DNA of 42,578 nucleotides from a virus: positions 1-42,578 of the IMG/VR virus record IMGVR_UViG_3300025647_000075; one strand, written 5' to 3'. The position numbers were made by a program, and so were the translations under genes. Below the pieces are notes generated by a model. It saw only the letters and a program-made list of their open reading frames with translations, ran no database searches and was not told the origin of the DNA. This document shows positions 1 to 29,200 of the stretch, piece by piece (the first letter of the stretch is position 1; the number at the start of each line of letters is the position of its first letter).

Positions 1-2064
1 ACTAGCACCACTTGCAGCATTACCAGCACCACTTGCAGCATTACCAGCACCACTTGCAGCATTACCAGCACCACTTGCAGCATTACTAGCACCACTTGCA
101 GCATTACCAGCACCACTTGCAGCATTACCAGCACCACTTGCAGCATTACCAGCACCACTTGCAGCATTACCTGCACTACTACCTGTAGTATTTGAACTTT
201 GATTTGGAATAGTTGCAGTAGCTAAATCAATTGAAAGACTATTAGCAATATCGTCGATACTAGTATCAGTTAGTCCTGCTTGTTTTAGAATATTTGCTAT
301 GCTACTACTATCAGTCGGCTCACCTGCGTTCTTCCATAAAGAATTTAGCATGTCAGCAGTAACTTTGCGAGATGCTTTTTTAGCAACTTTTTGTGCCGAT
401 TTTTGTGCCGATTTTACCAAATCACCGAATGTACTTTCAGAAATAACATATGTAGATGATGCAAGTAATGATGCTTCTAAATTGTTTAATAACGTATTTG
501 ATTCTGATAGCAAGTTTGAAGATGATTTTAACATAGATTCTTTGTTAGCCTTATGTTTAGCATCCCATTTAGCAATTTGTTCGTCTGCTGGCGTAGGTAA
601 ATCCCCAAGCTCGTCTTCAGTATTATTATACGTTTGTTTCTCTTCATCAGTCATGTTTCTCAGTTGATCTATTCTAGAAGCTTCTTTAGCTTCAAAATTA
701 GCCTCAACATCAGCAGCAAATCCTGGATTTTTATCTTTTAAGAACTGCTCGACAGGTTCCGGTAAGTTAAATGATCCTTTACCACCGTGTTGAGTTAAAA
801 GGCGTTTATATTCTTGTGCTTCGTCAGGAGAAAGATAATATCCTCTTACAACTGTTCCTTTGAACTTAAAATTCCCATCCTCACCTTGGATATTAGCTGC
901 AATCTTATCTAACAATTCTTGATTAGCAGGCAGACCTTTGTGATATTTTCCTATATATTTGTCATAAACTTCTTGAGCATACTCTGCTTTAGTAGTAGGA
1001 ACAAAATCTGCGGCATTGGAAAAATTGTGCCGATTAACTATTTCTTCGAGTCTATCCCAATCACTGCCTACTACAGTATTACCTAAATCTAAGTTATTTA
1101 AAGCACTTCTAATTGCAGCATCATCGCTAGCATCAATAGATCCAGAATTAATTTGTTGTTGTATTTGGTTTATTGCATAATCATCAGGAGTGATATATCC
1201 TTTTTTTAAGTTATCAAGAGTCATTGGCGGTTTTTTCATACTACTAGTATCGTTGCTACTTGCACTGCTGTGTGAAGTTGCAGCATTTTTATCAAATGAT
1301 GAATCATTTCCTGCAGAACCGCTACTGTAATTAGAACTACTATTACTATTACTTGTAGCGTTATCTTCGTCATCGTATACATTAGACCATTCATCAGGAG
1401 AATCATTCATCATGTCACTAACGCCGCCTACTGCAGCACCTGCAGCAGCACCCATAGCACCCTTTCCAAGAGCAGTAGATAGTTTATCACCTTTGATAGC
1501 ATTATTAGTTAATCTAATAAAAAAGCCAATAGCAGATCCACTAACCACACCACCGCTTGCAAATGATAGTATAGCAACCATAGCACCGACAATAAATGCA
1601 CTTTTTACAGGTGAATCTTTTGAAAATTTTTGCCATTGTTTAACTGCGGCTAATACTTTTTTACCATACGGCTTGCCTTTTAATGCAGTTGTTAACTGTC
1701 TTTGTAATTTTATAAATTGTGCATCTATATTTCTAACAGGTTTAGTATTTTGTGCAGATTTTAATAGCTTATCAATTTCAACTTTCAGTTCATTTGCAAG
1801 TTTTGAAGATACTGAACTTACTTTACCAAAAGTATTTAAATTATCGCCGGAGGCTTCGGCATTAGTTTCAGCAGTTTGAAAAATTTTTTGAATATCGTCT
1901 GGAGATAATTCTGCTTCCATTAATCTACTATAATGCTCAACTAACGGCCATACTTTATTTTCCCAGCGGTATAAATAAACTTGCTGTGTTTCTGTTAACT
2001 GCCCCCAACTTTCTGTTAAGAGTCTTGATGATTTATTTCTTTGTCCTAGTAATCTACGATTCAT
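1..2064 (-). CDS. Putative virion-associated protein with low-complexity repeats, 3' end outside window
   Basis: An uninterrupted frame of 688 codons reads leftward and leaves the window without a stop, so the C-terminus is missing. The ATG shares one base with the upstream gene's TAA (TAATG), suggesting translational coupling. Residues 1-150 are mostly helical and charged. Residues about 154-215 form a Gly/Ala/Ser-rich hydrophobic stretch (SAFIVGAMVAILSFAS, then AMGAAAGAAVGG) that could be a membrane or glycine-zipper segment. Residues 235-275 are Ser/Asn-rich, the middle is acidic and helical, and the visible end is a GNAASGA heptad repeat. LTE (residues 16-18) and LME (48-50) fit the (L/I)-x-E consensus of T4-type prohead protease sites. 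I do not recognise the family. Location behind a late-type promoter and the composition suggest a virion or internal head protein, but this is inference. Confidence 0.85.
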   Translation of the reverse strand, partial: MNRRLLGQRNKSSRLLTESWGQLTETQQVYLYRWENKVWPLVEHYSRLMEAELSPDDIQKIFQTAETNAEASGDNLNTFGKVSSVSSKLANELKVEIDKLLKSAQNTKPVRNIDAQFIKLQRQLTTALKGKPYGKKVLAAVKQWQKFSKDSPVKSAFIVGAMVAILSFASGGVVSGSAIGFFIRLTNNAIKGDKLSTALGKGAMGAAAGAAVGGVSDMMNDSPDEWSNVYDDEDNATSNSNSSSNYSSGSAGNDSSFDKNAATSHSSASSNDTSSMKKPPMTLDNLKKGYITPDDYAINQIQQQINSGSIDASDDAAIRSALNNLDLGNTVVGSDWDRLEEIVNRHNFSNAADFVPTTKAEYAQEVYDKYIGKYHKGLPANQELLDKIAANIQGEDGNFKFKGTVVRGYYLSPDEAQEYKRLLTQHGGKGSFNLPEPVEQFLKDKNPGFAADVEANFEAKEASRIDQLRNMTDEEKQTYNNTEDELGDLPTPADEQIAKWDAKHKANKESMLKSSSNLLSESNTLLNNLEASLLASSTYVISESTFGDLVKSAQKSAQKVAKKASRKVTADMLNSLWKNAGEPTDSSSIANILKQAGLTDTSIDDIANSLSIDLATATIPNQSSNTTGSSAGNAASGAGNAASGAGNAASGAGNAASGASNAASGAGNAASGAGNAASGAGNAASGAS
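4..171. repeat. 21-bp tandem repeat, at least 8 copies
   Basis: Eight consecutive 21-bp units run from 4 to 171 and continue past the left edge, since bases 1-3 match the end of another unit. Copies are identical except for one base in the 67-87 unit (C to T at its last position). The period is a multiple of three, and on the minus strand each unit encodes Gly-Asn-Ala-Ala-Ser-Gly-Ala (SNAASGA in the variant context) within the partial gene at 1-2064. Near-identity at DNA level indicates recent expansion by slippage or recombination. There are no spacers, so it is not CRISPR. Confidence 0.97.
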
Positions 2065-2645
2065 TACAATAATCCTAATAATTGTGTACGTTCAGCACTT
2101 GATAACTGTCTAATTTGATCTTTTATTTGTTTAGGGATCTTACTTTGCATAGTAGACGATCCTGAAGAAGATCGAGTACTTGCACTCGATCTATTAGTTT
2201 TCGATGACCCGCTTACTGATGATGAGCCCGATGTAGTACTAGCCCCTGCAGCAGCAGGTTGACTACCTGCTGCAGTCTCAGGTTCTGGCATATCTTTAGC
2301 AGCTTGAATCATAGCAGTGTTTAATTGTTGTTTATTCAAAACGCCTGCAGGTATTCCTTTAGGTGGAATATTTTTTGATTTTAAAAAAGTAACTAAGTCG
2401 TCACCTGTTCCTTGTGCAATACGTTTTCCCAGTGTACCTAAGTATTGACTAAATTCTGTATGTAAGCCATTAGCTAGTTTTGCAAATTGATGTTGACCTT
2501 GCCAGTTTGCTCCAATTGATTTAGCTGTTGAACTGGGAAGCCATTTCATAGCTTTTCCAGCTATATTTTTTGCACCTGAAGTAAATGCGTTAAAAGGTCC
2601 TTCATTAAGTTGTTCTTCAACGTCTTTAAATTCGTTATATCTCAT
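2064..2645 (-). CDS. Small late protein with prohead-protease-like site and Ser-rich linker
   Basis: A 193-residue protein of unknown family. It opens with a short amphipathic segment (MRYNEFKDVEEQLNE) followed by Gly-Pro. LNE (residues 13-15) fits the (L/I)-x-E cleavage consensus of T4-type prohead proteases, and T4 internal proteins carry a similar short N-terminal capsid-targeting peptide. Residues 16-115 look globular. Residues about 118-165 are a Ser/Ala/Thr/Gly linker, and the last 25 residues form a charged helix ending LLGLL. Its stop overlaps the start of the next gene by one base. It sits just behind a late-type promoter and stem-loop (2649-2709) whose 3' arm holds its only Shine-Dalgarno-like bases. 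Likely an internal virion or head-associated protein; function is inferred only from context and the N-terminal motif. Confidence 0.85.
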   Translation of the reverse strand: MRYNEFKDVEEQLNEGPFNAFTSGAKNIAGKAMKWLPSSTAKSIGANWQGQHQFAKLANGLHTEFSQYLGTLGKRIAQGTGDDLVTFLKSKNIPPKGIPAGVLNKQQLNTAMIQAAKDMPEPETAAGSQPAAAGASTTSGSSSVSGSSKTNRSSASTRSSSGSSTMQSKIPKQIKDQIRQLSSAERTQLLGLL

Positions 2646-2648
2646 AAG

Positions 2649-2709
2649 TAGTATCCATTAAGTTAGGTATATATTTTAGTATTTACCTAAGAATTAATAA
2701 TGGATACTA
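2649..2709 (-). promoter_or_regulatory. Stem-loop enclosing a late promoter and occluding a ribosome-binding site
   Basis: On the minus strand, a perfect 12-base outer stem pairs TAGTATCCATTA (2709-2698) with TAATGGATACTA (2660-2649). Inside it a 7-base inner stem pairs TTAGGTA (2690-2684) with TACCTAA (2669-2663), leaving a 14-base loop (2683-2670). The GGA at 2656-2654, eight bases before the ATG at 2645, lies in the outer 3' arm and is the only Shine-Dalgarno-like sequence for the 193-residue gene. The late promoter core (2687-2679) lies in the inner 5' arm and loop. A transcript reading through from gp46 would contain both arms; one started at the late promoter would contain only the 3' arms. 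There is no U-tract, so a simple terminator is less likely. Confidence 0.7.
2679..2687 (-). promoter_or_regulatory. Late-type (gp55-dependent) promoter core
   Basis: GGTAAATAC on the minus strand, 34 bases before the start of the 193-residue gene. The same core, GGTAAATAC, AATAAATAC or GATAAATAA, occurs in the gaps at 8280, 35911 and 40511. It resembles the T4 late -10 element TATAAATA recognised by gp55, which is encoded in this window. No -35 element is visible, as expected for a gp55 promoter. Confidence 0.6.
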
Positions 2710-2717
2710 ATACGTTA

Positions 2718-4493
2718 TTAAATAACAATATCTACATCTGTTGAAAATGAAGTAAACCCTGAATCTTTTATTACTTTGAGGATTGTATTTACTCTATTAA
2801 CAAGTTCGTCTTTATGAGAAATTAAAAATACATTTTTATTACGATCTCTTCCAAATTTTTTTAAAACACTTAATGCGTTATCTACACCGGAAGCATCCAT
2901 ACCAGAATCGATTAATTCATCTATAAATAACAAATTAATATTTTGGTATAATCCTTCCCATACATCACGAAATGCAAAACTTAATCCTAAAATTAATCTA
3001 TTACGCTCACCTCGTGATAAGTTATCAAAATCTAAATCTTGCCCTAGTTGTGAAATCTCTACTGATAAATCATTTAAAAAGATAACTTGATGAGGCAAGC
3101 CTAACTTATCTAAGTAATATGTTAATCTATTGTTAAGGTAAGACAGATTTTGATCAATAATTTTTTTACGAATAAAACTATCTTTATTTGTTAATAGTTT
3201 TAATAAAAAATCTTGATGTTCCTTTAGAGAAGTTAACTGATTAACAGTGTCCCATACAATAGGTTGTAGTGCAGTTTCTTTTAATTCAACAATCTGAGCA
3301 TTATATGGATTTTCATCTTGTTGTTTTAACGATAATTCTTTTTGGAGAGACTCGATTGTGGAACGATGATTGTATGCTTCATCGATTGTTTGATAAAATG
3401 TAGTCGGAAGAGACTCAATTTCTCCAAGTTCTTCAATAGAAGCAGTGTAGCTACGATGTTGTCCTGTTATTACTAATAAATGATGAGTTAAATCAGTTAA
3501 AGCATCTTCTTTAATAGACTTAATTTCTTCTTGTTTAGTGTCGTGTAGCTTATTTCCACACGCATAACACTTGTGATCATTTAACATAATAAGTTCAGAT
3601 CTAAGTTTTTCAATAGTAGCATTACTTGAAGCAATATCAGATTCAAGGGATTTAACCCATTTTGATGCTTCTGCTACTTTTGATTGTTTAGCAATGATAG
3701 AATCTTTAATTTTATGTGCTTCAATTTCTTTTTCTACATCTAATTTTTCAAATTCTTGAATAGCTGCTTGTAATTGTAAGATATCTTCGTTGTGTTTAAG
3801 TTTCCAAGCATTTTGTTTAGTAGTTAAACTGTTTATAGTTTGTTGAATATTATTATTAGCAGTTTGAATAGCTTCGATTTTTAGAGTTTCTTCAGTAATT
3901 GAATCTTTAATTGAACGAATTTCTTCTTTTAACTGAGTTGCTTTTTCAGAAAGAACAGTAATGCCTAACAATTGTTCAATAATTGCACGTTGATCGTTGG
4001 CTCGCATAGATAAAAATGGTTCTGAATACGTATTTAATGCAACAATGTTCTTAAACATATCGTGCGACATTTCTAATAAACTGTTAATAGTTTCTTGTGT
4101 CTTTCTCGAATCGCCTTGAGATTCATCAACATCTTCCTCTTGTTCTTGATCGTTGATATAAAATTTTAATATATTAGGTAATCTACCTCTTTCAATTCTA
4201 TAATCGACACCGTTTTTTTCAAAATGTAAAGTAACTAACATTCCTTTGTTATTAGTTTTATTAATTAAGTTGTTTTTCTTAATATTTGTAAGTGCTTGAC
4301 CATAAAGTGCATAAGATAATGCGTTAACAATAGAAGTTTTGCCAACGCCATTCCTCGACCCAGAATCGTCCCCACCTTGATCGATATTTTCCCCTAATAC
4401 AAGGGTTAAACTATCAGTATTAAATGAAACAGATTGAGTTATATTCCCAATACTCATAAAATTTTTTACAGTTAAATCTTTAATACAGATCAT
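2718..4493 (-). CDS. 46: Recombination endonuclease subunit gp46 (Rad50/SbcC-like ATPase)
   Basis: 591 residues, close to T4 gp46. It is the ATPase of the gp46-gp47 complex, which resects DNA ends for recombination and recombination-dependent replication in the cytoplasm. A Walker A region spans residues 34-54, ending NGVGKTS, but with a long Asp/Gly-rich insert between GEN and GKT. Long coiled-coil arms flank a zinc hook (CYAC, near residue 310). The ABC signature LSRGERNRL is near residue 490, and Walker B LLFIDE near residue 520 is followed by a D-loop region. Start: ATG overlaps the gp47 stop (TTATGA) and has GAGG upstream inside the end of gp47, so the two subunits are translationally coupled. 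It is the last gene of the early unit; a late promoter follows. Confidence 0.96.
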   Translation of the reverse strand: MICIKDLTVKNFMSIGNITQSVSFNTDSLTLVLGENIDQGGDDSGSRNGVGKTSIVNALSYALYGQALTNIKKNNLINKTNNKGMLVTLHFEKNGVDYRIERGRLPNILKFYINDQEQEEDVDESQGDSRKTQETINSLLEMSHDMFKNIVALNTYSEPFLSMRANDQRAIIEQLLGITVLSEKATQLKEEIRSIKDSITEETLKIEAIQTANNNIQQTINSLTTKQNAWKLKHNEDILQLQAAIQEFEKLDVEKEIEAHKIKDSIIAKQSKVAEASKWVKSLESDIASSNATIEKLRSELIMLNDHKCYACGNKLHDTKQEEIKSIKEDALTDLTHHLLVITGQHRSYTASIEELGEIESLPTTFYQTIDEAYNHRSTIESLQKELSLKQQDENPYNAQIVELKETALQPIVWDTVNQLTSLKEHQDFLLKLLTNKDSFIRKKIIDQNLSYLNNRLTYYLDKLGLPHQVIFLNDLSVEISQLGQDLDFDNLSRGERNRLILGLSFAFRDVWEGLYQNINLLFIDELIDSGMDASGVDNALSVLKKFGRDRNKNVFLISHKDELVNRVNTILKVIKDSGFTSFSTDVDIVI

Positions 4494-5500
4494 AAATCCT
4501 CGTAAATAGATAACAACAGGTTTTTGTCAAAATTATCAGAGTCTATTGCGGCAATTTCACTTGATACAATGGTATCGATTGATTTAAATTGCTCAATATT
4601 AAGTTCAGTGTTTATTTCTTCTAATTGTTTTTGTGGAATTAATGTAAGTTCTCTACATTTATGTTGATTTACAAATGTTTCTTTAATAAAAGAAGCTTCT
4701 TCGTAAGAAATAGGAATATCAATTGCTACTCGCAAGTGCATTTTTTCTTTAATTATACTAGTATCCGGTTCGAGTAATTCGGAAAGTTTAACAGTTCTAT
4801 ATCGTGGGCAGTTATCCCAGTTTAAATATACAGGTTCTAATCCGTTTTCTTTATCAATAATCATCATTCCACGGTCATCGTCCCATGCATCTGCATAGTT
4901 GTGAGGGAATGCGTTTCCTATGTAATGAATATTTCCACGAACTTGACGTTTATGAAAATGCCCAGAAAACACATATTTTTGATTTACAAAGTGTTCAGCA
5001 CGTAAATCACCGTGATCTGGCATACGAACTAATGAGTTCATGTAAAATGTAGGTAATTCAAAGTGACCAAACATATATTCTGCGTTAATCTTAGAAATTT
5101 TCTTCCATTCATCACCTATAAGCCAAGGAACTAATGCAACATTATCATCAACGGTTATAGAATTAATTACAGTTATACCTGAAATATGCCGTCCAAACTC
5201 AACAGAATGTAAATCACGTTTATCTTTGTAATATAAGTCATGATTACCTGGAAAATAAAAAAAATGTTTAAATGATTTTCCTAATTTTTCTAAAATTTTA
5301 ATCGAAGTAGATAATGTAGTGATACTTAATGCACTTCGACTATGGTGATAATCCCCACAGCAGATTCCAGTATCACAATTATGTAATTGTGCTTGATTAA
5401 TAAACCAATCAATAAATTCCTCACAATCCTGGTTATGTGTTTTTGAATTTCCTTTTAATCCCAAATGTAAATCTGTGAAAACTGCAGCTTTTTTAAACAT
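4490..5500 (-). CDS. 47: Recombination endonuclease subunit gp47 (Mre11/SbcD-like nuclease)
   Basis: 336 residues, matching T4 gp47 in size. It is a metallophosphoesterase-fold nuclease that partners gp46 in DNA end processing. Visible metal or catalytic motifs in order are D10/H12 (FTDLHLG), D50 (CCGDYHH), N86/H87 (FPGNHD), H146 (FGHFELP), and H181/H183 (SGHFHKR). The C-terminal part would contact the gp46 arms. The start has a strong Shine-Dalgarno, AAGGAG, four bases before the ATG. Those bases are also the last sense codons of the endonuclease gene upstream. The stop overlaps the gp46 start. All expected active-site residues are present, so the enzyme should be functional. Confidence 0.96.
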   Translation of the reverse strand: MFKKAAVFTDLHLGLKGNSKTHNQDCEEFIDWFINQAQLHNCDTGICCGDYHHSRSALSITTLSTSIKILEKLGKSFKHFFYFPGNHDLYYKDKRDLHSVEFGRHISGITVINSITVDDNVALVPWLIGDEWKKISKINAEYMFGHFELPTFYMNSLVRMPDHGDLRAEHFVNQKYVFSGHFHKRQVRGNIHYIGNAFPHNYADAWDDDRGMMIIDKENGLEPVYLNWDNCPRYRTVKLSELLEPDTSIIKEKMHLRVAIDIPISYEEASFIKETFVNQHKCRELTLIPQKQLEEINTELNIEQFKSIDTIVSSEIAAIDSDNFDKNLLLSIYEDL

Positions 5501-5501
5501 T

Positions 5502-7199
5502 TTACTCCTTTATGAAAGTTAATTGCCCAGCATCCCAATATCGATCATAATTATTCAATCTCATATTGGCTACTTCTGACAAGTTAGGGTTGAAAAATGG
5601 TAATAGTTTGTTTAATTTGTGTTTTTGAAACTTATTTCTTGACTCTAGTACATTATTTTTAACATAATAATAATTAAATGACACGGTATTTAATTTTTTA
5701 AATCCAAGGGTAGCATATACATTACCATTTGAGTAGCTATTATCAGCATATGAAATAATTGATCCCTTAATTGATGCTAATAACTTGCTTGCTCCCCCTA
5801 TGATATTTGTATTTAATTTACTAGCTAATCTAATTAGTTCGTTATCGTACTTTTTATTAAATCTAGGAATACCTACAACTACTGCTTGTACTAGTTCGTT
5901 GTTGTAAAACAAGCCTAATTTAGTATGCCCACCTACATAACCGTTTAAATGATTACTAGTAAAAAACTCTCGAGCAGTTTTAGTATCTAGTTCTTTTACG
6001 ATACATTTTCTTGCATATATTCTAGAGTTTAATCTTAATTTTGATTTTAAAATACTTTTCCAAATTTGTTGTTTAATAGGATCATTCCAATCAATATCTA
6101 AAATATGCAATAATTGGTAATCATTTTCATTACAAAGTTTAGTTTTATTATAATGGTAGTGTTTATCTTTCCCTTTGCTCTCACAATGCCAGTAAACACC
6201 ATTATATTCTATTGCTAAGTTATAATCAGGTAATACAATATCTAATTCTTTTCCATTCAATATAGATCGATCATTAGTGATAATAGTATTAACACCTAAT
6301 GATTTTAAAAATTGCACTACTTCGTATTCACCTTGTGACGTATTTCTTCCTATATTAACATTAATATTATATTGATTAAAGTATTTTCCTAAATTTGAAG
6401 AACTTACATTTAATTGTTCTGCAATTTGATAAACCGTAAGACCAGAATCAAACTGAGATTGCAACCACATAGGATTATTTAACTTGTTTAGTACAGTTGC
6501 AGGGTAGTAATTCTTTTTTCGAGTATTAACTGCTTTATTTTTTATAACATTAGACTTTAATGGATGATCGACTCCATATTTTGCTAATAATGTTTGCTTC
6601 CGTTTATTAATATTAACAAAGTTCTTATTATTATATTTTTTTAATCTAGTTGTTTGTCCGGTTAATCGAATAGAAGCCATATAAGTGAGGTAATCTACAC
6701 CGTATTTTTCTTCTATAGTTTTCTTAACTTTTTCTTTTATAGAATCACACTGCATTGCATGTGAAGTATTGTACTTTTTTAATGAAGTATTAACAACTGC
6801 TTCTTTAAATTCCTGAGTTTGTGAGTAATGTTCAACCCCATATTTTTTTAATGAAGTATTAACAACTGCTTCTTTAAACTTTTGAGTTTGTGAGTAATGT
6901 TCTACGCCGTATTTTTTTAACGAAGTAGCTTTTGCAAGATCTACTGATCCTATTGCAGTGCATTTATTACTACAATAGGATCGATATTTTCTTAGATCAG
7001 AATGCCATTTTAATTGTTTTTGACATACCGGGCAAGTTGGTTTTGTGTTAGTATTGTTAGTATAATGCCAGAGCAATTGTCTGGCATTATTTGTATTAAG
7101 ATCTATAGCTAATTGCGTAAATGACTCATCAAATTTACATAAATCATTTAAGTTTAATCTAGATTTATTAATAAGATCATCTATAGTTAGATTATTCAT
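5502..7199 (-). CDS. Homing-endonuclease-like protein (zinc finger, CapR-type repeats, HTH, Vsr/PD-(D/E)XK-like nuclease)
   Basis: 565 residues from the chosen ATG; residue numbers below use this start. A Cys cluster (CPVC near 56-59, CSNKC near 76-80) looks zinc-binding. Residues about 92-225 hold five or six repeats of the LKKYGVEHY..T type, as seen in phage-encoded DUF7487/CapR-repeat endonucleases. An HTH-like segment (LTVYQIAEQLNVSSSNLGKY) sits near 254-273. A nuclease core ELDIVLPD...AIEYNGVYWH near 319-338, with acidic residues D320 and E331, resembles Vsr/PD-(D/E)XK homing enzymes. A further domain of unknown role covers about 390-560. The chosen start overlaps the gp55 stop by 8 bases; an in-frame ATG at 7226 would add 9 residues and overlap gp55 more. 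Neither has a clear Shine-Dalgarno. Likely a selfish insertion between gp55 and gp47. Confidence 0.85.
   Translation of the reverse strand: MNNLTIDDLINKSRLNLNDLCKFDESFTQLAIDLNTNNARQLLWHYTNNTNTKPTCPVCQKQLKWHSDLRKYRSYCSNKCTAIGSVDLAKATSLKKYGVEHYSQTQKFKEAVVNTSLKKYGVEHYSQTQEFKEAVVNTSLKKYNTSHAMQCDSIKEKVKKTIEEKYGVDYLTYMASIRLTGQTTRLKKYNNKNFVNINKRKQTLLAKYGVDHPLKSNVIKNKAVNTRKKNYYPATVLNKLNNPMWLQSQFDSGLTVYQIAEQLNVSSSNLGKYFNQYNINVNIGRNTSQGEYEVVQFLKSLGVNTIITNDRSILNGKELDIVLPDYNLAIEYNGVYWHCESKGKDKHYHYNKTKLCNENDYQLLHILDIDWNDPIKQQIWKSILKSKLRLNSRIYARKCIVKELDTKTAREFFTSNHLNGYVGGHTKLGLFYNNELVQAVVVGIPRFNKKYDNELIRLASKLNTNIIGGASKLLASIKGSIISYADNSYSNGNVYATLGFKKLNTVSFNYYYVKNNVLESRNKFQKHKLNKLLPFFNPNLSEVANMRLNNYDRYWDAGQLTFIKE
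6781..6918. repeat. 69-bp tandem duplication inside the homing-endonuclease gene
   Basis: Two adjacent 69-bp units (6781-6849 and 6850-6918) differ at only a handful of bases. They encode two nearly identical 23-residue LKKYGVEHYSQTQ(K/E)FKEAVVNT units, and a third diverged copy begins at 6919. High DNA identity compared with the other, diverged protein repeats points to a recent in-frame duplication. Confidence 0.92.
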
Positions 7200-8001
7200 C
7201 TTTAACTTGAGATTCCCATTCAGCATTGTGCAATCTAGTATAGCTAGGAGCTAATCCATGAGATTCTAAAATGTCATCTCTAATATTTTGATTGCGTTTT
7301 TCAATATTTATTACACGAACGAAGCTATTTTTAATAGTTTGTGTATAATACGCGAATGGGTTATTTGATTTTGATTCATCAAATTGTAATCCAATTTGAG
7401 CAAGTTGAAGAATTGCTTGCCCTCTCATCTCATCGTTGTACGTGTACCCGCGTACATTGCTTCTAGTAGCATATCGTTCAACTAGTTTTAGCCACATTAA
7501 TGCTAACTTATTAGTAGTTTGACCTTTATCTTTACAAAATTTACCAGAATGTACATCGCCTTTCCAATGACTTTTACCGACACATTCTAAGTTTCCGTAT
7601 TCATCCATTTTCCAATGTTGAAATGGTGGAAAATTTAACTTAACTTTACTATCTGCAATTGATTTAGGATTTTTCTTACGGCCTGGAGCATTAGGGATAT
7701 GATCATAAGTCATTATCCTAAAGACAACTTCCGACGGTTTAATACTATCTGGATCGATTTCAAACTCTTGTAGTTTTACTCTTTTTTGAGTAAGTTTTGC
7801 ATTTTCAAACTCAACAACGCTTAGGCATTTAGCTTTATTTTTGCGAGCAGTTATTAGTGCTTCTTCGTCTATATCATTAATAGAATCTAAAATTAAGTCG
7901 TAATCAACGTAGTCTGGTGAAGAAAATGAACTAAATGATGATTTTGATCGATGAATTTCTAATAAAATGTCTTTATTATTAAGATAATTTTTTTTCTGCA
8001 T
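7192..8001 (-). CDS. 55: Late-transcription sigma factor gp55
   Basis: 269 residues. It is the T4-type sigma70-family late sigma factor that directs host RNA polymerase to TATAAATA-type promoters. The N-terminus (KKNYLNNKDIL) parallels T4 gp55 (YNYVNNKELL). The sigma region-2-like core lies near residues 165-245: RGYTYNDEMRGQAILQL, then FDESKSNNPFAYYTQ and NSFVRVINIEKRNQ, matching T4 GYTQSWKQEM and FDETKYKNPHAYITQ. It is longer than T4 gp55 (185 aa) because of a middle segment containing KSHWKGDVHSGKF, which I remember from cyanophage gp55 proteins. It overlaps the DUF1737-like gene upstream by 23 bases and the endonuclease downstream by 8. It is transcribed from the sigma70 promoter at 8208-8236 and is the likely activator of the late promoters in this window. 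Confidence 0.93.
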   Translation of the reverse strand: MQKKNYLNNKDILLEIHRSKSSFSSFSSPDYVDYDLILDSINDIDEEALITARKNKAKCLSVVEFENAKLTQKRVKLQEFEIDPDSIKPSEVVFRIMTYDHIPNAPGRKKNPKSIADSKVKLNFPPFQHWKMDEYGNLECVGKSHWKGDVHSGKFCKDKGQTTNKLALMWLKLVERYATRSNVRGYTYNDEMRGQAILQLAQIGLQFDESKSNNPFAYYTQTIKNSFVRVINIEKRNQNIRDDILESHGLAPSYTRLHNAEWESQVKDE

Positions 8002-8207: not shown

Positions 8208-8236
8208 AGTATACAATAAATTGATACCGATGTCAA
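8208..8236 (-). promoter_or_regulatory. Host sigma70-type promoter for the leftward gp55-gp47-gp46 unit
   Basis: On the minus strand TTGACA (8236-8231), a 17-base spacer, then TATACT (8213-8208). The -35 is perfect, the -10 is one mismatch from TATAAT, and the spacer is ideal. Transcription would start near 8201, about 20 bases before the ATG at 8182. This suits early expression by unmodified host polymerase and sets the start of the DUF1737-like gene. Confidence 0.85.
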
Positions 8237-8279: not shown

Positions 8280-8288
8280 GGTAAATAC
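8280..8288 (+). promoter_or_regulatory. Late-type promoter core before the baseplate module
   Basis: GGTAAATAC followed by AATATATAGGAG, 18 bases before the first baseplate ATG. It is identical in core to the minus-strand element at 2679-2687. The Shine-Dalgarno AGGAG (8296-8300) follows at once, so the leader would be very short. No -35 box is seen. Confidence 0.6.
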
Positions 8289-8306: not shown

Positions 8307-9236
8307 ATGGCCAATAATTACGAAACTACTACAATTAATACTAATTACAGTAGTATTCCAATATCGACACAAGTAAATATACCGGCAAATTATCAAATTG
8401 CATCAGATCCAGTAATAAATGATGCATTGTATAGTGTTAATATACCTAAAAGTAAAGTTGGAGAAGGGCTTGCAAAAAGTCAAACTGAAATTAGTAAAAT
8501 TCTTGCACAAGGTAATAAAAATACCGATAATATTGCAAGTGCAGCTCGACAAGGAACGGTTCAAGCACAAGGTATAGGCGATAATGCTAATCCAGAACAG
8601 CCTAAACAAATACAGGTTCAAGTTAAATCAACTACAGGAGCAAATGCAGTTGACTGGAGAGTAAATATTTCAGTACCGTCTATATTTCCAACAGTAGGTG
8701 CATTAGAACCGTTAAGTAAAACAAATAATAGAATGATATTCCCATTTAATCCGTCGATAACTATTAGTCATACTGCACAATATAGTCCGATTACATTAAC
8801 TCATACTAATTATGCGTTTAATTCATATGAAAATAGTGTTGTTGATAATTATGTAATTTCAGGTGAGTTTTATAGCGAAAACGACGATGATGCCAAATAC
8901 TGGTTAGCTAGTGTGCATTTTTTACGATCAGCTACTAAAATGTTTTATGGGAATAGTGCATTAGTTGGAATGCCCCCGGTAGTATGTAGATTAAACGGGT
9001 ATGGAAAGCATGTGTTAAATAATATTCCTGTAATTATTACAAATTTTACAGCAGATTTAAATCCAGATGTAGATTATATTGAATGTAAGCTAGATGGTGA
9101 AACTAATTATGTTCCTGTAAAGTCTACTATTTCTGTAACATGTGTACCTAATTATGCACGTAGAACACATGCAAAATTTGGATTAGAAAAATTTGCAAAA
9201 GGCGAATTTGTTGGCAGTTCCGAAGGATTTGTATAA
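8307..9236 (+). CDS. 48: Baseplate tail-tube cap protein, gp48-like
   Basis: 309 residues. The first ~110 residues are polar and low-complexity. Residues about 115-300 form a domain I recognise from marine T4-like gp48 proteins: DWRVNISVPS, a phrase like FPFNPSITISHTAQYSP, SGEFYSENDDDAKYWLASVHFLRSATKMFYG, then LNNIPVIITNFTADLNPDVDY. T4 gp48 caps the baseplate hub and starts the tail tube. AGGAG lies seven bases before the ATG. The stop overlaps the next start (TAATG). First gene of the rightward baseplate operon behind a late-type promoter. The 48 assignment rests on family memory; gp54, its structural relative in T4, is the main alternative. Confidence 0.8.
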   Translation: MANNYETTTINTNYSSIPISTQVNIPANYQIASDPVINDALYSVNIPKSKVGEGLAKSQTEISKILAQGNKNTDNIASAARQGTVQAQGIGDNANPEQPKQIQVQVKSTTGANAVDWRVNISVPSIFPTVGALEPLSKTNNRMIFPFNPSITISHTAQYSPITLTHTNYAFNSYENSVVDNYVISGEFYSENDDDAKYWLASVHFLRSATKMFYGNSALVGMPPVVCRLNGYGKHVLNNIPVIITNFTADLNPDVDYIECKLDGETNYVPVKSTISVTCVPNYARRTHAKFGLEKFAKGEFVGSSEGFV

Positions 9237-19700: not shown

Positions 19701-20258
19701 AGTAGCGACGAGTTATTTAGAAAATACCATCCAGAGTTATCGAAAATTAAATCAATAAGTGATGAAATAGTGTACCACCCTGTTAAATATAAAATTTTAT
19801 TCGGAAGTAAAGCAGTTCCAGACTTACAAGTAAAATTTAAAATTGTAAGAAATAAAGAATTAATAATTAATGAAAATGAATTGAAAGCTGATATTATACA
19901 AGCAATTGACAGATTTTTTGAAATAGAAAATTGGGATTTTGGAGAAACTTTTTATTTTCAGGAACTTAGTGCATACATAATGAATACACTGACTCCTAAA
20001 CTTTTAAGTATTATTATTGTTCCAAGACAAGGACTTCAGGCATTTGGTAGTTTGTTTGAAATTAAATCTGAAATAGATGAAATTTTTATTAATTCTGCTA
20101 AAGTAAGCGATATAGAAGTAATTGACGAAATTACAGCATCGGAACTTCAAGCGTCAGGCGATGTGATTACAAATGTAACTACATCGAGCACTGGAAATAT
20201 TATAAGTACAGCATCAACTAGTTTAGTGTCGCCAAACGGCGGAGGATATACATACTAA
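16785..20258 (+). CDS. 6: Baseplate wedge subunit gp6 (gpJ-like core)
   Basis: 1157 residues, nearly twice T4 gp6 (660). The N-terminus is diagnostic: EDWKRIYQSF, LRRTMINYLRQNYPEDFNDY, SSEYLALIDMIAFLGQNLSFRIDLNARENFLETAERRES, and LANMLAYNPKRN, residues about 14-110. gp6 dimers form the inner ring that holds the baseplate wedges together. The C-terminal ~150 residues, with AIDRFFEIENWDFGETFYFQ, match the gpJ-type end domain. Middle insertions account for the extra length. GAGG lies about eight bases before the ATG after a 30-base gap, and the stop overlaps the next start (TAATG). Confidence 0.93.
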   Translation: MSASDRQSRLIVAEDWKRIYQSFRNADFQSYDFDNLRRTMINYLRQNYPEDFNDYIESSEYLALIDMIAFLGQNLSFRIDLNARENFLETAERRESILRLANMLAYNPKRNQTANGLLRIETVKTTESIKDSSGLNLSGFVVKWNDQSNANYFEQFIKILNAALPVSNSIGNPLKSANINGVQHQKYRFNATNKDSAIFKFTKQIEGVSTRFEVVSSDISETAVNEEPPIAGTSPAFLFRDDGQGSNSNNTGFFMHFKQGVMNSNTFSISNPTPNQVVSIDAENINNTDVWLYGLDSNGIETVPWIKVDSIEGNNVIYNNLFNGIRDVFSVLTRIGDRINLVFSDGVFGSLPSGNFKVFYRTSANARSVITPGAIGTVNLEIPYESRSGTLEKLILGLRLNYTISNGSASETNLEIKQNAPATYYTQNRLITGEDYNIGPLAIDQDIIKTKSTNRISSGVSKYFDLKDVSGKYSNTSLFADDGVLFKEYYETKTQFKFASQSDIEGIIYNTIEPIITSTNVKNFYLDKQPKVIAYDLNVRWNQKLTNTNRCTGTLIDIDNRVNPVGVYTASSLRFIETGTMCKFVAPVTSEGVAQYFTKDGKLTTDSTMFGASPYKWTNVLKVIGDGTTVDDNNVGAIELTDTIPSGAILDQLMPKLSRSLTKDAKIQIIDQAFAYKDFGLRYNIESREWTIITEENINTSEDFATGKAGDTSGRNFDSSWFLYFKTDSEKYTITYRNLRYVFESENALRFYFDSADKIYDPTTGTIVRDFINVMSINRKPDSIFPFNQDFKWSILDSYKDKEGYLDSRKIQIQFLDLDDDTASDDIDMFNTLVDELVNPTEKIVFQKRYVTSDGVEDFKYFNNNDATIKIIQNESKIIPSVEIDGQVFYLVDEHVFKTLNKAKNNTVINTNYKAYVGRSDLKFHYVHVADSNYRIDPSASNLIDTYLLTKSYDTEMRKYINGTLLSAPKPPSSDELFRKYHPELSKIKSISDEIVYHPVKYKILFGSKAVPDLQVKFKIVRNKELIINENELKADIIQAIDRFFEIENWDFGETFYFQELSAYIMNTLTPKLLSIIIVPRQGLQAFGSLFEIKSEIDEIFINSAKVSDIEVIDEITASELQASGDVITNVTTSSTGNIISTASTSLVSPNGGGYTY

Positions 20259-23200
20259 TGGCATATAATGACAATAACAATATAAATCCATTACCTACTC
20301 CAGAAAATAATAATTTTTCATCAATTGATTTAATCCCTCAATTTTTTAGATCAGATGAAAATAAAAAGTTTCTGCAAGGCACAATCGATCAATTAATTAA
20401 ACCCGGTGTAGCAGAAAAACTCAACGGGTATGTTGGCAGATTAAACTCAAAATCGTCATCAGTGGATGATATATACATTTCAGATGTTTCACCAGAACGG
20501 ACTAATTATCAATTAGAACCGGCATTAGTAATTAAAGACGATTCAGATAATGTTGTATTTTATAAAGATTATAACGATTATATTAATACATTAAAGATTC
20601 TTGGAGCAAATGTAGAAAACCATAGTAGGCTAAATAGCCAAGAGATGTACGCATGGAATCCTAATTTAGATTGGGATAAATTTGTCAATTTTAGAGAATA
20701 CTACTGGCTACCTAACGGGCCGACTAGGGTTTCGGTATACGGACAATCTCAAGAAGTTGCAAGCACAGTTTCAGTATCACTGCGTAATAACGATGACAAT
20801 GTATCGTATGTATTTTCTTCAAGCGGGTATACTAATAATCCTACATTAAATTTATATAGAGGGCAAACATATAAGTTTGAAATCGATACACCTGGATACC
20901 CAATCGCATTTGCCTTATCAAGAACATTTACACCAGGAGTATCTTTATTATTATCTGGAAACAAAGGTCTATATACATCAGGATTGTACGACGCTATTGA
21001 CTATGAAGCTACACGATATGATATTGGAGAATACGTTACTTTTCCAGATTCAGATACTATTATCTCCGAAGATAATGGTATTAAAATATTAGCATATAAT
21101 CCACAGCAAGATAATAATAGATTACCTGGAATATACTTTGTAAGGAACTATACAACTAATTATAGTGGTAAAGACGCAGCATTTAACATTACTATCGGAC
21201 AAGATCAAACTATTACTAATATTGAAATATTAGATCCTGGCTCTAATTTTAAGAAAGGCGAGCGAATAACCATCTCAGATCGATACTTAGGTAATAATAA
21301 TGCAAGCGATATAGTAATTACAGTCTCGGAAATTTCAAAAAGTAAAAATATCTCAACATTATATTATGATGGTATTCGTAAACTAGACGACAATGGAGAT
21401 GAAGTTGCTGTTGTTTATATTGAAAAAGGTACGATTGAATTTACTATACCATTAAATGCGCCAAACAGATTATTTTATATTAGTCAAAATGATATTAATA
21501 CTAGTGGTGCAATTAATGTTTATGATATAGAAGAAAATTCATATATTAATATTGAAGAAGAAATATTAGGAAAAAAATATTATACAAGTGCAAATGGTGT
21601 TGAATTTACAAACGGTTTAAAAGTATATTTTCAAGGGGAAGTATATCCTGAGAAGTATGCAATTGACCAATGGTATATCGAAGGAGTTGGAGAAGAGATT
21701 AAACTAATAAATGCAAAAGATTTAATCATACCAGCAGCATATACTGAAAACAAATTAATCCCATTTGACTCAGATGAGTTCGACGAGCTCCCCTTCTCAA
21801 ATGCAAATTCATATGCTGGAACTAGAGATTATATTGTATGTAATAGAGCATCTATAGATAAAAATTCTTGGAGTAGGTATAATAAGTGGTTTCATAAAGA
21901 AATTATTATTAAAAGTGCAGAATACAACAATCAAAATGTAGACATTGATGAATCTAAACGGGCTACTAGACCTATTATAGAATTTGAACCTGGTTTAAAA
22001 ATGTTTAATAGTGGAGTTTATGCTAAGAAAAACATCGATTTAGTAGATAATTACACTGATGACGTATTTAGTAAGATTGAAGGAAAGTTAGGTTATAATA
22101 TTGACGGTGTTGATTTATTAGATGGAATGCGGATTTTATTTACTGCAGATCGTGATATCTTAGTAAGTGGCAAGATTTTTGAAGTTCAGTGGGTTACTTT
22201 TAATGGAAAACAACTAATTCATTTAGTTGAAACAACAGACTCTCACCCTAATGAGTTAGAATGCGTATTAGTAACAAAAGGGGCAGAATATGGTGGTAAA
22301 ATTCTACACTACTACAATAGTCAATGGAAAGTTTCTCAAGAAAAACTAACGCACAATCAGCCTCCTAGATTTGATGTGTATGATAATCAAGGTATAAGTT
22401 TTGGAAATACTTCTGTATTTGAATCTTCTACGTTCAACGGCACTACTATATTTGAATATCGTAAAGGATCGGGAGAAAACGACTCTGAGTTAGGATTTCC
22501 ATTATCATATAGATCTATTGAAAACTCAGGAGATATTATATTTAATTTTAGTTTGTTAAATGATGTATTCACTTATCAAACAATTACTGACAAAATAACA
22601 AGAAAAATTGATACGGGATATTTAAGAAAATATAACGATAATAACACATATAATTATGTAAACGGGTTTAGTAGTAAGCCTGTTAACAGTAAACAGTATG
22701 TAATTAAAACTGAATATATTACTGCAAAACAAGTTAATGAATTTAAAATTGATGTTTTTGAAAAGTCTGCGTTATTAACTGATTTAAAAGTATTAGTATA
22801 TGTAAACAAAAAATTTCAAATACAAAACAAACATTATAGGATTGTTAAGATTAACGATGTTGCTATTGTAAACTTTTATGTTAATCTAAAAGAAGGTGAT
22901 TTCTTAGAATTAAAAGCACATTCGTATGCTAATAAAACTGATAAAGGATATTTTGAAGTTCCAAATAATTTAGAAAGAAATCCGCTTAATCAAAATATAG
23001 TCGAGTTTACATTAGGTGAAGCAATTGATCATGTAAGCAGTATGATCGATGAAATTACTGGATTTGCTGGAGTGTATCCGGGAACAAGTAATTTAAGAGA
23101 TTTAGGGTCATTAGATCATTATGGAAAACGATTTGTAAAACATAGCGGGCCTATTAATTTACCATTATATCATTTAACAAATACAAAATATAATGTTGTT

Positions 23201-26200
23201 AACGCATTAGAATATAGTCGAATTGAATACTCAAGATTTAAACGTACATTTTTAAGTACAGCAGAAACTTTAGGATTTGACGGATATACTAAACAGCATG
23301 TTGATCGATTAATACAAGAAATAACCAAGGATAAGTTAAAGAGTCAGCCGTTTTACTTTTCTGACATGATTGGACATGAAGCAGCAAATAGAATAGAATA
23401 TAAAGTATTAGATCATCGAATTAATCTGTATAGTTTAAGCGATCAGTTTGATTTAACTACATTGTCACCTAAAAGTGTATTAGTTTACTTAAATTCTGAA
23501 CAGTTAACCTATGGTGTTGATTATACATTTACAGATGATGCGTTTGTATCAATTAATGCTGGGCAAAAAGAAGGAGATAAACTTGAAATTTACGAATATC
23601 AAAATACCGATGGGTCGTTTATTCCGTGTACTCCTACAAAGTTAGGATTATATCCAAAATATGTACCTGAATTAATTTTAGACGATACTTATCAGTCAAA
23701 TGAAACAGTAATGGATATTCCTTATAAAGTATATGGGGAAATATATAAAGAAACTATTCAACCTACAGTTCGCGGGTGGTTTTATCCCGTATTTACTTCA
23801 CGGTCTCAAGCAAAATCGTTTGATAAAGACAATGGAGGAGAAGGCAATGCTAATATACTGAAAATTAACGGGTTAAGTACACTTCTTTATACACCAGAAA
23901 CTAATACTACTTTAGGGGGGATAGATACGGTTAAATACGACATATTACCACTAGGTGTTCCAATGATTCGAGGACACGATGGTAGTTTTAGCAGAGCTTT
24001 CCTAGACTTTAGAGATAATTTGTTACTTGAACTAGAGAAACGAATTTTTAATAATATTAAAGTAGATTATGATTCTAGTTTACTTAAAATTTCAGATTTT
24101 GTTAATCTTGAATCTAAGAAAAATGAATTTACATTAGAAGAAATTAATAACAGTTTATTTAAAAGTTTTGTTAAATGGCTTCCAAATGTAGATAGAGATT
24201 ATACAAATCATTATTTCTTTGATCGTACTAACCAATTTACATTTAATTATGTAAATGCTACATCGTTTTCTGGAAATACAGTACCTGGATATTGGAGAAG
24301 TATTTATGAATATGGAATCGGCACAGACAGTCCGCATACCCGCCCCTGGGAGATTTTAGGATTTACAATTAAACCTGTTTGGTGGAATGAAGTATACGGT
24401 CCTGCTCCATATACTAGAGATAATTTAATTCTGTGGGAAGATCTTTCAAATGGTATTATTAGAGAGCCCAATAAACCTATTGTTGTAAAAACACAATATG
24501 CTAAAAAGGATCTTCTTAATTTTATCCCAGTTGATAAGTTTGGAAAATTATTATCTCCAGTTAATTCAGGATATGTTAAAAATTTTACACAAAGAAGTTC
24601 TAATCAAAACTTCAAATTTGGTGACGGTGCTCCAGTTGAATCTGCTTGGAAGAAAAGTTCAGATTATCCATTTGCAATATTATCAGCATATCTACTTAAT
24701 AAACCTGCGAAAGTTATGGGATTAGGGTACGATGTTTCACGTATCAAACGAAATTTAGCAAATCAAATTTCATATACTGAAACAGAAAAACCAATCGAAT
24801 TATCTTCCGTAATTTTACCTAATACATGTGACGACGATTATCGTATACAAGTGTCAGGTTTTTTAAATTATATTCAAGATGTTATTGCTAGAGATCGAAT
24901 TACAGGATGTCCAGAGTATCGAACTAATATTAGAAGCATTACTAATCAATTAGGGTTTAAATTGGCAGGATTTAGTGATAAAAAGAAGTTAAAACTAATA
25001 TTAGATAGCAGGTCACCTCAACAATTTAATACAGGATCTAGTATTTTTATACCGCAAGAAAATTATAAAATTTTTTACAATGTTAGCTCACCTGTTGACA
25101 TTGCGTTGTATAGCGGTGTAATAATAGAAAAAGAAACAAGTGGATACACAATACGAGGGTATAATAAAGAAACACCGTATTTTGAATATTTTGAACCGTT
25201 AGTGTTTGAAAATTCTGTTGTTATATCAGTAGGTGGAATAGCTGAAGTTTACAGTGCATGGGCTGTAGATAAAGCATTTTATAAAGGTCAGGTTATTCAA
25301 TATAACAACAGGTATTACCGAGCACTTGAAACATTTACATCAACAAACGTATTTGATGAATCTAAAGTAGTATTTTTACCCAACCTTCCTATTATTGGTG
25401 GGAAATCTGCAACATTTTATCGGTACTTTAACGAGCGTGAATCATTTAAATTACCATATGGTACAAAGTTACGTACATCGCAAGATGTGATAACATTTTT
25501 ATTAGGACATGCTGCTAATTTAAAATATAAAGGATTCACATTTAATTACGTTGATACAAATGGTCGTTTACATAATTGGGAAGATGTCGCAAAAGAATTT
25601 TTATTTTGGACAACACAAGGATGGAGCGAAGGAACAGTGATAACATTATCACCTTCGGCTTATCAAGTTGACTATAAACGAAATTATGTAGTTGCGGATG
25701 ATATTTTTGCTCAACAATATACATATAGTTTACTGTCTGAAACAGGACAACCATTAGAACGGGAATTTTCAAGTGTATATCGCATAGAAAACGAATTTGG
25801 AATTAGAAGTGTTAATACTGATCATGGTATTTACAATATAGCAATACCGTTAGTGCAGAAAGAACATGTTGTGTTAATTGATAACAAAACTGTTTTTAAT
25901 GATATTATTTTTGAGCCTGAAACTGGGTATAGACAAGAACGACTAAAAGTAGTTGGCTATAGATCAGATAATTGGACAGGTAGTTTAAACATACCAGGAT
26001 TTGTATTCGATGATGTAGTAATCACTGACTGGGCTCAGTGGAAAGATTATAGCATTGGAGCTGTAGTGAAATACAAGCAATATTATTATATTGCATTAGC
26101 AAATGTGTCCGGCTCGCTTAATTTTAATGTAAATTACTGGTTTAAATTAAAAGAAAAACCGCAGCCAGAATTGATTACAAATTTTGATTATCGTATTAAT

Positions 26201-29200
26201 CAATTTGCAGACTTTTATGATGTTAATACATTAGGCTTTGATAGTGATTTACAAGCATCTGCTCAACATTTAGTCGGTTATCAACCACGTAGTTACTTAG
26301 CAAATATAATTAATGACGATATTTCTCAATTTAAATTTTATCAAGGATTTATCCAAGAAAAAGGAACTAAAAATTCATTACTAAAGTTATTTGAGCCATT
26401 AGGTAGTGCCGATATAGAAAATTTAGAATTTTACGAAGAATGGGCAATACAAACTGGACGATATGGAACTACTGATGCTATTTCACAAGTTGAATATAAT
26501 CTAAAAAAAGACAAATTACTAGTGTCACCTCAACCTATAGAGTTAACTACAGTAATTCCAGAAACTAATTATGAAAATACATATTTTATACTTCCACATG
26601 AAGTATATGATAAACCGGAAAATTATACACATAAGCCATTTCCAGTTACATCAACATACACTGAATTTGTTAAAACTGGAGGATATGTTAATGACGAAGA
26701 TGTAACATATATTGCAAATTCTAAAGATGATTTAGCTAAAGGCGATGTTAATTTGTTTGGATTAGGTGACTATGTATGGGTTACAGAAAAAGGTGATAAT
26801 TCATGGGCAGTTTATCAGCATATTACTACTAAACTAAATGTTTTACAAGTATCTGATGAAAAAGAAAAGACTGATAAAGGATACTACTTAATTGAGCTAT
26901 TAGTGGACAATTGGGTTGAAGATCAAGTATTACCAAATGATATAATTGGAATTAAAGGTGCTCAAGAATTTAATTTAACAGGTTTATATATTGTTGAAAG
27001 CGTAAGACTGAATAAAATAAAAGTAAGAACAGGCACATCATATGTAACAAATATTAAAGCATTTATTGAGCGTAAGTTTGTATTAACTAAGCTCAGAAAT
27101 ATGCGAATAACTGATTTATCTAAATTAAATGAAATATCTCAGCAAAAAATTTATAATAATCAGAAGGTGTGGATTGACAATTATACAGAAGATACTTGGG
27201 CAGTATTAACTAACAATGCAGTGTACCAAGTATTACAAACTATACACAATCCATCTAACGATTCAACATTTGACAACTTTAGTGATGTTATTACAGCATC
27301 TAAAGATAACAGTACAGTAGCGATATCAGCACCGTTAGATCAGCAAGGAATTATCACAGTATTTAAACGTAAAAACGAAAGATCAAACTTAGTTTTCAGT
27401 GATACAATAAATGTAGCTAATCGATATATGACTATTCCCGATGAAGCATTTGAAAATATAAGTATGTCAATGAGTCCAGATGGTGAGTATTTGGTTGTAG
27501 GCATTCCATCAGCGTCAAACGTATTAACAAGATACAAAGGGGGTTTTGATAAATTTACCGAATATAATAAAAATGATATAGTAAAACATCGTGAAAGTTT
27601 GTGGAAAGCACGAAGAAATATTCTTCCAGAAGTGGGACAAGTACAATTTACGTCGTTTTCAGAATATGCACAAATTGACTTAGCATCTGAGGAAGATTCA
27701 ACAGAAATTGAGTTAATATTAACTGGAAATCCAGGATTTAAGAATAACGAAGTTGATCATATATTAGTTAGATCTCCTAAAGAAATGTTTTTAGGATCAA
27801 AACCGGGTGATAATGTTACATTAGAATGGCTAGGACAAACGTATTTAAATGGCACATTAGACAGTATTGAACCATTTAATGGTGAGATTCCTGAAATTAC
27901 TAGAGATCGATTATCAGGTACTCATGATATTTTTGAAAAAGTTGAAAATATATTTATAATATCGAACTATCTTACGTTGCCAGAAGTAGGTGATATTGTA
28001 TTTTCAGAAATTGCAAACGGGCAAGTTTGTTATGTTGATGTGTATTTAAATGATTGTATTGTATATTTAAACAATGTTAATGGTGTTTTCAACTCTACAG
28101 GAGAGCTATTAATTGGAAATAGTAATTTAGTTGGAACATACAACGAAGGAATTGCATATAGTTTATCAGATTCGACATATGGCTTTTGGATGATTAAATT
28201 TTATAAGCCAACCGGTGAGCCTATTGAGTATAGTAATAACAATAAATTCTACGATGAAGGACGTGGGTTAGTATATGTTGATTTTAGAGTAAGCGATGCT
28301 AATCGGAGTGTTAATCGTTATCATAATATACAAACAACAGCCGAAGAAATCGGCCCATTTTATGCAGAAAAAAATAGAGCTAGTTTCATAAGTCAGTTGT
28401 CGTATTATGGTAATCAAAACAATATCGAACAAAATTATACTAGTAACAAGTGGGTAGTTAGAGTAGGCAGAGAATATTCTAGTCATATACTAAGTAATGT
28501 TTTCGGACCTGGACATGAATCTAATATATCAATAAATTTTAGAGTTTATGATTATGAAAATAGATCAGTTGACTTAGAATCGCATGGATTTAACTATAAC
28601 ATTACAAATAAGTTACTGCAAGTGTATGATGTTTGGAATGGATATATAGATTTTGAATATTCAAACTTTGATGTTAACGGAGATCCTTACGAAATAATAG
28701 TAGGTGATATTATTGAAGATATTCAAAGCACCTCAGACGGTATTAATACTGCGGTTGTAACTACTAGTTCTGCAAAAGTTGAATTTTATCAACGAGTAGG
28801 CTCTAAGGTTAGAGTGTATGTAAAAATATTAACAGGTACTTGGCGTAAACTAAGCAACGCATATAAGGTTGAAATTAATAGAAAAAGTAGATCAGCATAC
28901 GATCCTAGTAGGATCACAGGAACTATTCAAGACTTTGAAAATGATGTTGTTGTAGGTAATAACATTATTGGAGATTTAATAGTATTTGAAAATGAAACAG
29001 CTTTTCCAGTAGTGCAAGATCCTGTAATTGTCGATGAGGAATATTACTTTTTTGAAGAAACTATTAATTTTGGGATTTCACGAACTTCGAGTATTCCAAG
29101 TGGACTCAATAAAGATTATGTGCAAGTATATAATATTCAAGGTGACGAATACGGCCAACCTGGATATGAAAATGAAGGTGCTATTGCGGTATACAGAAAA

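Follow-up and report, generated by a model that had tools for sequence, protein, structure and literature searches.

A putative late promoter within a ribosome-site hairpin behind gp46 in a relative of the PA5oct, Phosso, and Atu_ph07 jumbo phages

Introduction

Late promoters located within hairpins that cover ribosome-binding sites (RBS) have been documented for the T4 genes e, soc, 49, I-TevI/II/III, and segB, as well as for mobE of phage Aeh1 (PMC3014915, PMC2988022). Genes switched in this manner are late genes carried on early or middle polycistronic RNA (PMC3014915, PMC2988022). In this work, we analyzed a 42,578-nucleotide (42.6-kb) stretch of viral DNA (IMGVR_UViG_3300025647_000075; hereafter the window), for which an initial annotation had proposed such an arrangement between gp46 and a 193-residue gene. 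The precedents that it named (e, soc, 49, and I-TevI) are all among the documented cases (PMC3014915, PMC2988022). For this phage lineage, no report of such switches was found in the open-access literature searched, and no published transcript map of PA5oct was found there.

Structure of the hairpin and the predicted late promoter

The intergenic region contains the following elements:

2698..2709, minus strand: outer stem 5′ arm, TAGTATCCATTA, present in read-through RNA only
2684..2690, minus strand: inner stem 5′ arm, TTAGGTA, overlapping the late promoter
2679..2687, minus strand: late-type promoter element GGTAAATAC predicted from sequence, core TAAATA at 2685-2680
2674, minus strand: predicted late transcription start, placed by T4 spacing
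2663..2669, minus strand: inner stem 3′ arm, TACCTAA
2649..2660, minus strand: outer stem 3′ arm, TAATGGATACTA, carrying a Shine-Dalgarno-like GGA
2656-2654, minus strand: the Shine-Dalgarno-like GGA, 8 nt 5′ of the ATG at 2645

Read directly from the sequence, minus-strand positions 2709-2649 form a 61-nt hairpin with a 12-bp outer stem and a 7-bp inner stem, the latter extended by three pairs to 10 bp in RNAfold. The outer arms are perfectly complementary and lie 37 nt apart; the window contains no other perfect 12-bp inverted repeat whose arms are separated by 60 nt or less. The TAAATA is located between these arms, in the 5′ part of the hairpin, and overlaps the inner 5′ arm. The only Shine-Dalgarno-like site before the 193-residue gene is the GGA carried by the outer 3′ arm. 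Both stems, the late-type element inside them, and the placement of the GGA had been described in the initial annotation and are borne out by this reading. For the late start, which it proposed at 2670-2673, T4 spacing gives approximately 2674 instead.

The predicted fold is strong for the composition of the region. For positions 2640-2720 (81 nt), the minimum free energy is −21.4 kcal/mol (z = −5.3), and none of 200 shuffles was as good. The 72-nt intergenic region folds at −19.4, whereas shuffled versions average −7.4 (sd 2.3), and none of 5,000 dinucleotide shuffles matched the native sequence. In the collections searched, no sequence variant of the hairpin was found; the only other known copy, identical at the element, is in the overlapping contig IMGVR 3300022200_000151. 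This contig is 99.989% identical to the window over 18.9 kb (two mismatches), extends its left end, and is essentially the same virus.

The window has just one further copy of the 9-mer GGTAAATAC. It precedes the divergent structural operon at 8307, in which one uninterrupted reading frame of 5,213 residues spans 20258-35899 (plus strand):

8280..8288, plus strand: second GGTAAATAC copy, predicted late promoter of the structural operon, 27 nt upstream, with no comparable hairpin

More generally, TAAATA is found before annotated starts approximately 4- to 9-fold above expectation in the window and all 11 related contigs (5 vs. 1.3 expected in the window; 39 vs. 4.8 in the largest relative). The base that follows is most commonly C (39%), as in T4.

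The early operon and the gene pair behind it

The genes and promoter relevant to transcription through the hairpin are as follows:

8208..8236, minus strand: predicted sigma70-type promoter, TTGACA-17-TATACT (11/12), heading the early operon
7192..8001, minus strand: gp55-like sigma factor for late transcription (phrog_12791, E 1.3e-75)
4490..5500, minus strand: gp47/SbcD-like subunit
2718..4493, minus strand: gp46/SbcC-like recombination endonuclease subunit, with its stop 8 nt before the hairpin
2064..2645, minus strand: 193-residue gene under the hairpin, N-terminus MRYNEFKDVEEQLNE/G similar to capsid-targeting sequences that carry a head-protease site
1..2064, minus strand: downstream member of the late pair, with 688 residues inside the window; the overlapping contig (L082/L083) gives 1,223

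From 8236 leftwards, five co-directional genes encode a DUF1737 protein, the gp55-like sigma, a DUF7487 endonuclease-like protein, gp47, and gp46. The PHROG match of the second gene indicates that the virus encodes its own late sigma. Promoter-like matches as a class are as frequent as expected in this A/T-rich region (40 found vs. 40 expected); the one at 8236-8208 is the best of them and stands at the operon head. A terminator scan from gp46 to the 193-residue gene found no terminator-like site. Read-through of RNA from gp46 into the 193-residue gene is therefore likely, given this absence together with the near-consensus promoter at the operon head.

The DUF7487 gene (5502-7226, minus strand) lies between gp55 and gp47 and has an internal 69-nt tandem duplication near 6772-6927 (SLKKYGVEHYSQTQ). 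Phage Paride has the same gp55-gp47-gp46 block, divergent from its baseplate genes and without the DUF7487 gene.

The hairpin might instead end, protect, or process the gp46 mRNA as a terminator, 3′ stabilizer, or RNase III site, with its overlap of promoter and RBS being secondary. It follows gp46 immediately, and stem-loops are found at this place in cultured relatives, namely, an inverted repeat with a T-run in Paride and an inverted repeat in Phosso. We consider this explanation very improbable, as the stem is long and A/T-rich with 37 nt between the outer arms and no T-run, the terminator scan missed it, and a terminator would need neither a promoter between its arms nor a GGA in its 3′ arm. 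As a candidate intrinsic terminator (G+C-rich stem plus T-run), the hairpin was rejected in the scan.

In IMGVR 3300022200_000151, the genes past gp46 encode 193, 1,223, 74, and 150 residues and are followed by non-coding DNA. T4-type capsid-targeting sequences with a head-protease site are expected to give N-termini with an [LIV]xE pattern. Among distinct N-termini of the upstream gene, 27 of 28 contain [LIV]xE between residues 6 and 26, in many cases with A/K/G and P after it, although this motif is so short that chance matches are common. A head maturation protease was called by PHROG in the same contig. On these sequence features, the 193- and 1,223-residue proteins are probably internal capsid proteins. 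The description of 1-2645 as virion genes in the initial annotation is thus favored by the capsid-targeting and cleavage-like motifs, but not by annotation. Neither protein has named relatives in phage records, and a PHROG "Hsp70" label for the 193-residue protein (E 8.8e-06) was not accepted. The 1,223-residue protein (window 1-2064 plus L082:16367-20000, minus strand) contains several different short tandem repeats (GNAASGA, EVSTEP, and QQQQSNEKKPSSNA).

Accessibility of the ribosome site

We calculated the opening cost of each start as the free energy to hold −20 to +4 around the ATG unpaired, and the switch as the cost in read-through RNA minus that in late RNA; these in silico energies leave out translation, RNA-binding proteins, and host temperature. 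At the 193-residue gene, the opening cost is 15-17 kcal/mol in read-through RNA, depending on the flank, and 1.8 kcal/mol in RNA from the predicted late start, such that the computed block is gone once the 5′ arm is removed. The ribosome site is equally open for any RNA start from 2668 to 2679. The resulting switch of 15.3 kcal/mol ranks first among 142 TAAATA-start pairs in the window and the 11 related contigs (mean 2.8, sd 3.2).

In the same scoring, the T4 controls e (11.8-12.9), 49 (13.8), and I-TevII (13.0) are all below this value, and ipII and ipIII, scored as open starts, have 3-4. The documented switch of T4 soc scores low, at 2.5, so the measure is imperfect.

Translation of gp46 may also be considered. 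A terminating ribosome with the standard footprint should touch only the first base or two of the hairpin. With 8 nt separating the gp46 stop codon from the hairpin, such a ribosome should hardly disturb the structure; the opening cost is still 15.5 when RNA is available from 2709 onward.

Folding by chance in an A/T-rich intergenic region, with no regulatory role, appears to be the least probable explanation. When the upstream part was shuffled with the late 5′ UTR fixed, none of 2,000 shuffles reached the observed 15.2, but the best one, at 15.217, was within 0.01 kcal/mol of it; the region is AT-rich, and the margin over this best shuffle is nil. Against chance stand the 5,000 whole-region shuffles, none of which folds as well, the uniqueness of the perfect 12-bp arms in the window, the contrast with 26 homologous starts described below, and the coincidence of the hairpin with the relocation of the pair.

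Taken together, the locus quite probably represents a timing switch of the T4 gene e type. Early RNA from the sigma70 promoter near 8220 would extend through gp55, the endonuclease gene, and gp47-gp46 before entering the 193-residue gene. In this read-through RNA, the Shine-Dalgarno region would be base-paired to the 5′ arm within the hairpin, which, judging from the computed energies, would block initiation in vivo. Late in infection, the gp55-like sigma of the virus would guide RNA polymerase to the TAAATA element inside the hairpin; late RNA from near 2674 would lack both the outer and the inner 5′ arms, leaving an open site that could be translated. The 193- and 1,223-residue proteins would then be made only late despite lying behind early-operon genes. 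Silencing of the read-through transcript and late-only expression of the pair were the central proposals of the initial annotation, and the fold, its loss on arm removal, the early promoter, the absence of a terminator-like site, the gp55-like sigma, and the TAAATA enrichment all argue for them.

Relocation of the pair and relatives of the virus

No close DNA relatives of the window were found in phage records. The nearest cultured gp46 matches have 45-49% identity, and by this comparison and the divergent gp55-gp47-gp46 block found also in Paride, the virus falls in the PA5oct/Phosso/Atu_ph07 jumbo-phage lineage. It had been described as a distant T4-like phage; distant from T4 it is, but it is better grouped with the jumbo phages PA5oct/Paride, Phosso, and Atu_ph07.

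Homologs of the 1,223-residue gene were found at 65 loci, most with a 193-residue homolog directly upstream, and homologs of the pair occur in ~60 related contigs. In most relatives, the 74-residue family comes directly after gp46, and the 150-residue family and then 0.4-0.8 kb of non-coding DNA precede the pair, whereas in the window virus, and only there, the pair adjoins gp46 and precedes the 74-residue gene. The starts of the pair in relatives have their own TAAATA promoter, and most have a GGA 7-9 nt before the ATG; by these promoter predictions, the pair is a late pair in the homologs. These starts have no such hairpin (26 distinct starts; mean 1.8, sd 1.8, maximum 6.4). The hairpin was not found behind gp46 at any of 79 other loci, nearly all of which have a different gene there. 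These patterns suggest that the pair was relocated into the early operon in the window virus only, and that the gain of the hairpin was associated with this move. Relocation and hairpin count as one event, hence this is a correlation. The timing switch would thus accompany a lineage-specific move of a late pair to directly behind gp46.

The same operon has a second RBS hairpin just outside the window (L082:16058-16110 of the overlapping contig, minus strand). Its arms ATGCTACTTTCTTA/TAAGGAAGTAGCAT form 14 pairs, one of them G-U, and hide the GGAAG and ATG of the 150-residue gene (z −5.9). This start is the strongest of 590 gene starts scored and, at 22.4, an outlier among 55 homologous starts (mean 10.3, sd 3.2). 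The loop contains CAAATA and no TAAATA. As a counterpoint to the timing switch, this stronger hairpin indicates that RBS hairpins in this virus need not in every case go together with a late promoter.

In ~30 relatives, the 150-residue gene is followed by 0.4-0.8 kb without coding sequence (L082:15030-15600, minus strand; L153:2458-3277; and corresponding positions), which contains tandem small hairpins and, in this virus, a sigma70-like promoter (TTGACA..TATAAT). No Rfam or tRNA/tmRNA match was found for this stretch, which is possibly a new structured RNA.

Similar arrangements in other gene families

In two other gene families of the relatives, TAAATA overlaps the 5′ arm of a hairpin, and the start codon usually lies within or next to the 3′ arm. 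The counts given here for both families overstate the evidence because related sequences are non-independent. As a control, arms were exchanged between sites with different arms, and the best stem was scored since the arm offset varies.

The first family is a 115-residue gene behind tail-fiber-like genes (hairpin TAAATAGTTATAC..GTATAACTATG; L198-L277, upstream of position 401). The switch is at least 5 at 23 of 24 distinct TAAATA-bearing sites, and TAAATA is absent at 22 of the 77 loci scanned; relatives without it have a promoter of the TTGAC..TATA(A/C)T type instead. The best-stem test gave 12/18 compared with a swapped maximum of 12 and is weak for this family.

The second family is a 106-residue gene (MSRPKP..) found in at least 598 related stretches, with a hairpin TAAATATATGCGTA..TACGCATATG over the start codon (L278-L357, upstream of position 401). 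Stems of at least 7 pairs were found at 59 of 63 distinct sites, compared with a swapped-arm mean of 38.8 and a maximum of 47. The arm pairs TATGCGTA/TACGCATA, TATACGTA/TACGTATA, and TACTGTGCA/TGCACAGTA all occur and represent compensatory changes. Among cultured phages, the switch at this gene is 9.7 in Atu_ph07, 4.9 in PA5oct, and 2.7 in Phosso, with none in SCTP-2.

These families also bear on whether the inverted repeat at the window locus is a DNA operator, at which a dimeric protein, possibly the gene product, would repress the late promoter and the RNA fold would be incidental. The inner dyad overlaps the promoter, and I-TevI autorepression at its own late promoter provides a precedent (PMC2988022). 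However, the arms fall exactly on the Shine-Dalgarno region, the window has no second copy of the dyad and at most one other copy of its 9-nt half-sites, and the gene product is capsid-like rather than DNA-binding-like. Moreover, the 3′ arms of the two families usually lie on or against the AUG while loop length varies, which suits RNA better than an operator of fixed spacing. We regard an operator as very improbable and retain the timing switch as the preferred explanation.

There is a roughly even chance that hairpin-embedded late promoters are a standing device of jumbo phages related to PA5oct, Phosso, and Atu_ph07, gained when late genes enter early operons. On this reading, the device would be present on no fewer than three unrelated targets, namely, the window pair and the 115- and 106-residue genes.

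Comparison with known systems

At the sequence level, the window case shares with T4-type switches a hairpin over the ribosome site, a predicted late promoter between the arms, a place in a predicted early unit, and a gp55-like sigma. It is a well-supported case of a known kind, and its recurrence in the lineage is probable. The locus would extend a classic mode of T4 timing control to a distant lineage of jumbo phages and to capsid-type genes. The natural comparison between one relocated pair with a hairpin and ~60 unrelocated pairs without one suggests when such switches arise, and the cultured Agrobacterium phage Atu_ph07, with a similar arrangement at its 106-residue gene, offers a testable case.

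The closest counterpart is T4 gene e, in which the late promoter(s) likewise lie between or overlap the arms, the Shine-Dalgarno sequence is in the 3′ arm, and early RNA is blocked while late RNA is free (PMC3014915). The computed switches are similar, and in T4, e is followed by ipIII and ipII, which encode internal head proteins. The window differs in sequence, in having a longer outer stem and a separate inner stem, and in its unrelated gene and jumbo-phage lineage. T4 49 (endonuclease VII) and soc are also late genes in early or middle units with an RBS hairpin and a late promoter (PMC3014915), but have no gene or sequence relationship to the window, and soc is weak in the same calculation. 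I-TevI/II/III, segB, and Aeh1 mobE are mobile or inserted late genes in early operons with the same switch (PMC2988022). The window genes are likewise newcomers at their site, but they are not endonucleases, and the DUF7487 endonuclease gene of the operon lies upstream of them. With no gene or sequence in common with the known cases, the locus agrees with the earlier suggestion of an independent occurrence on unrelated genes.
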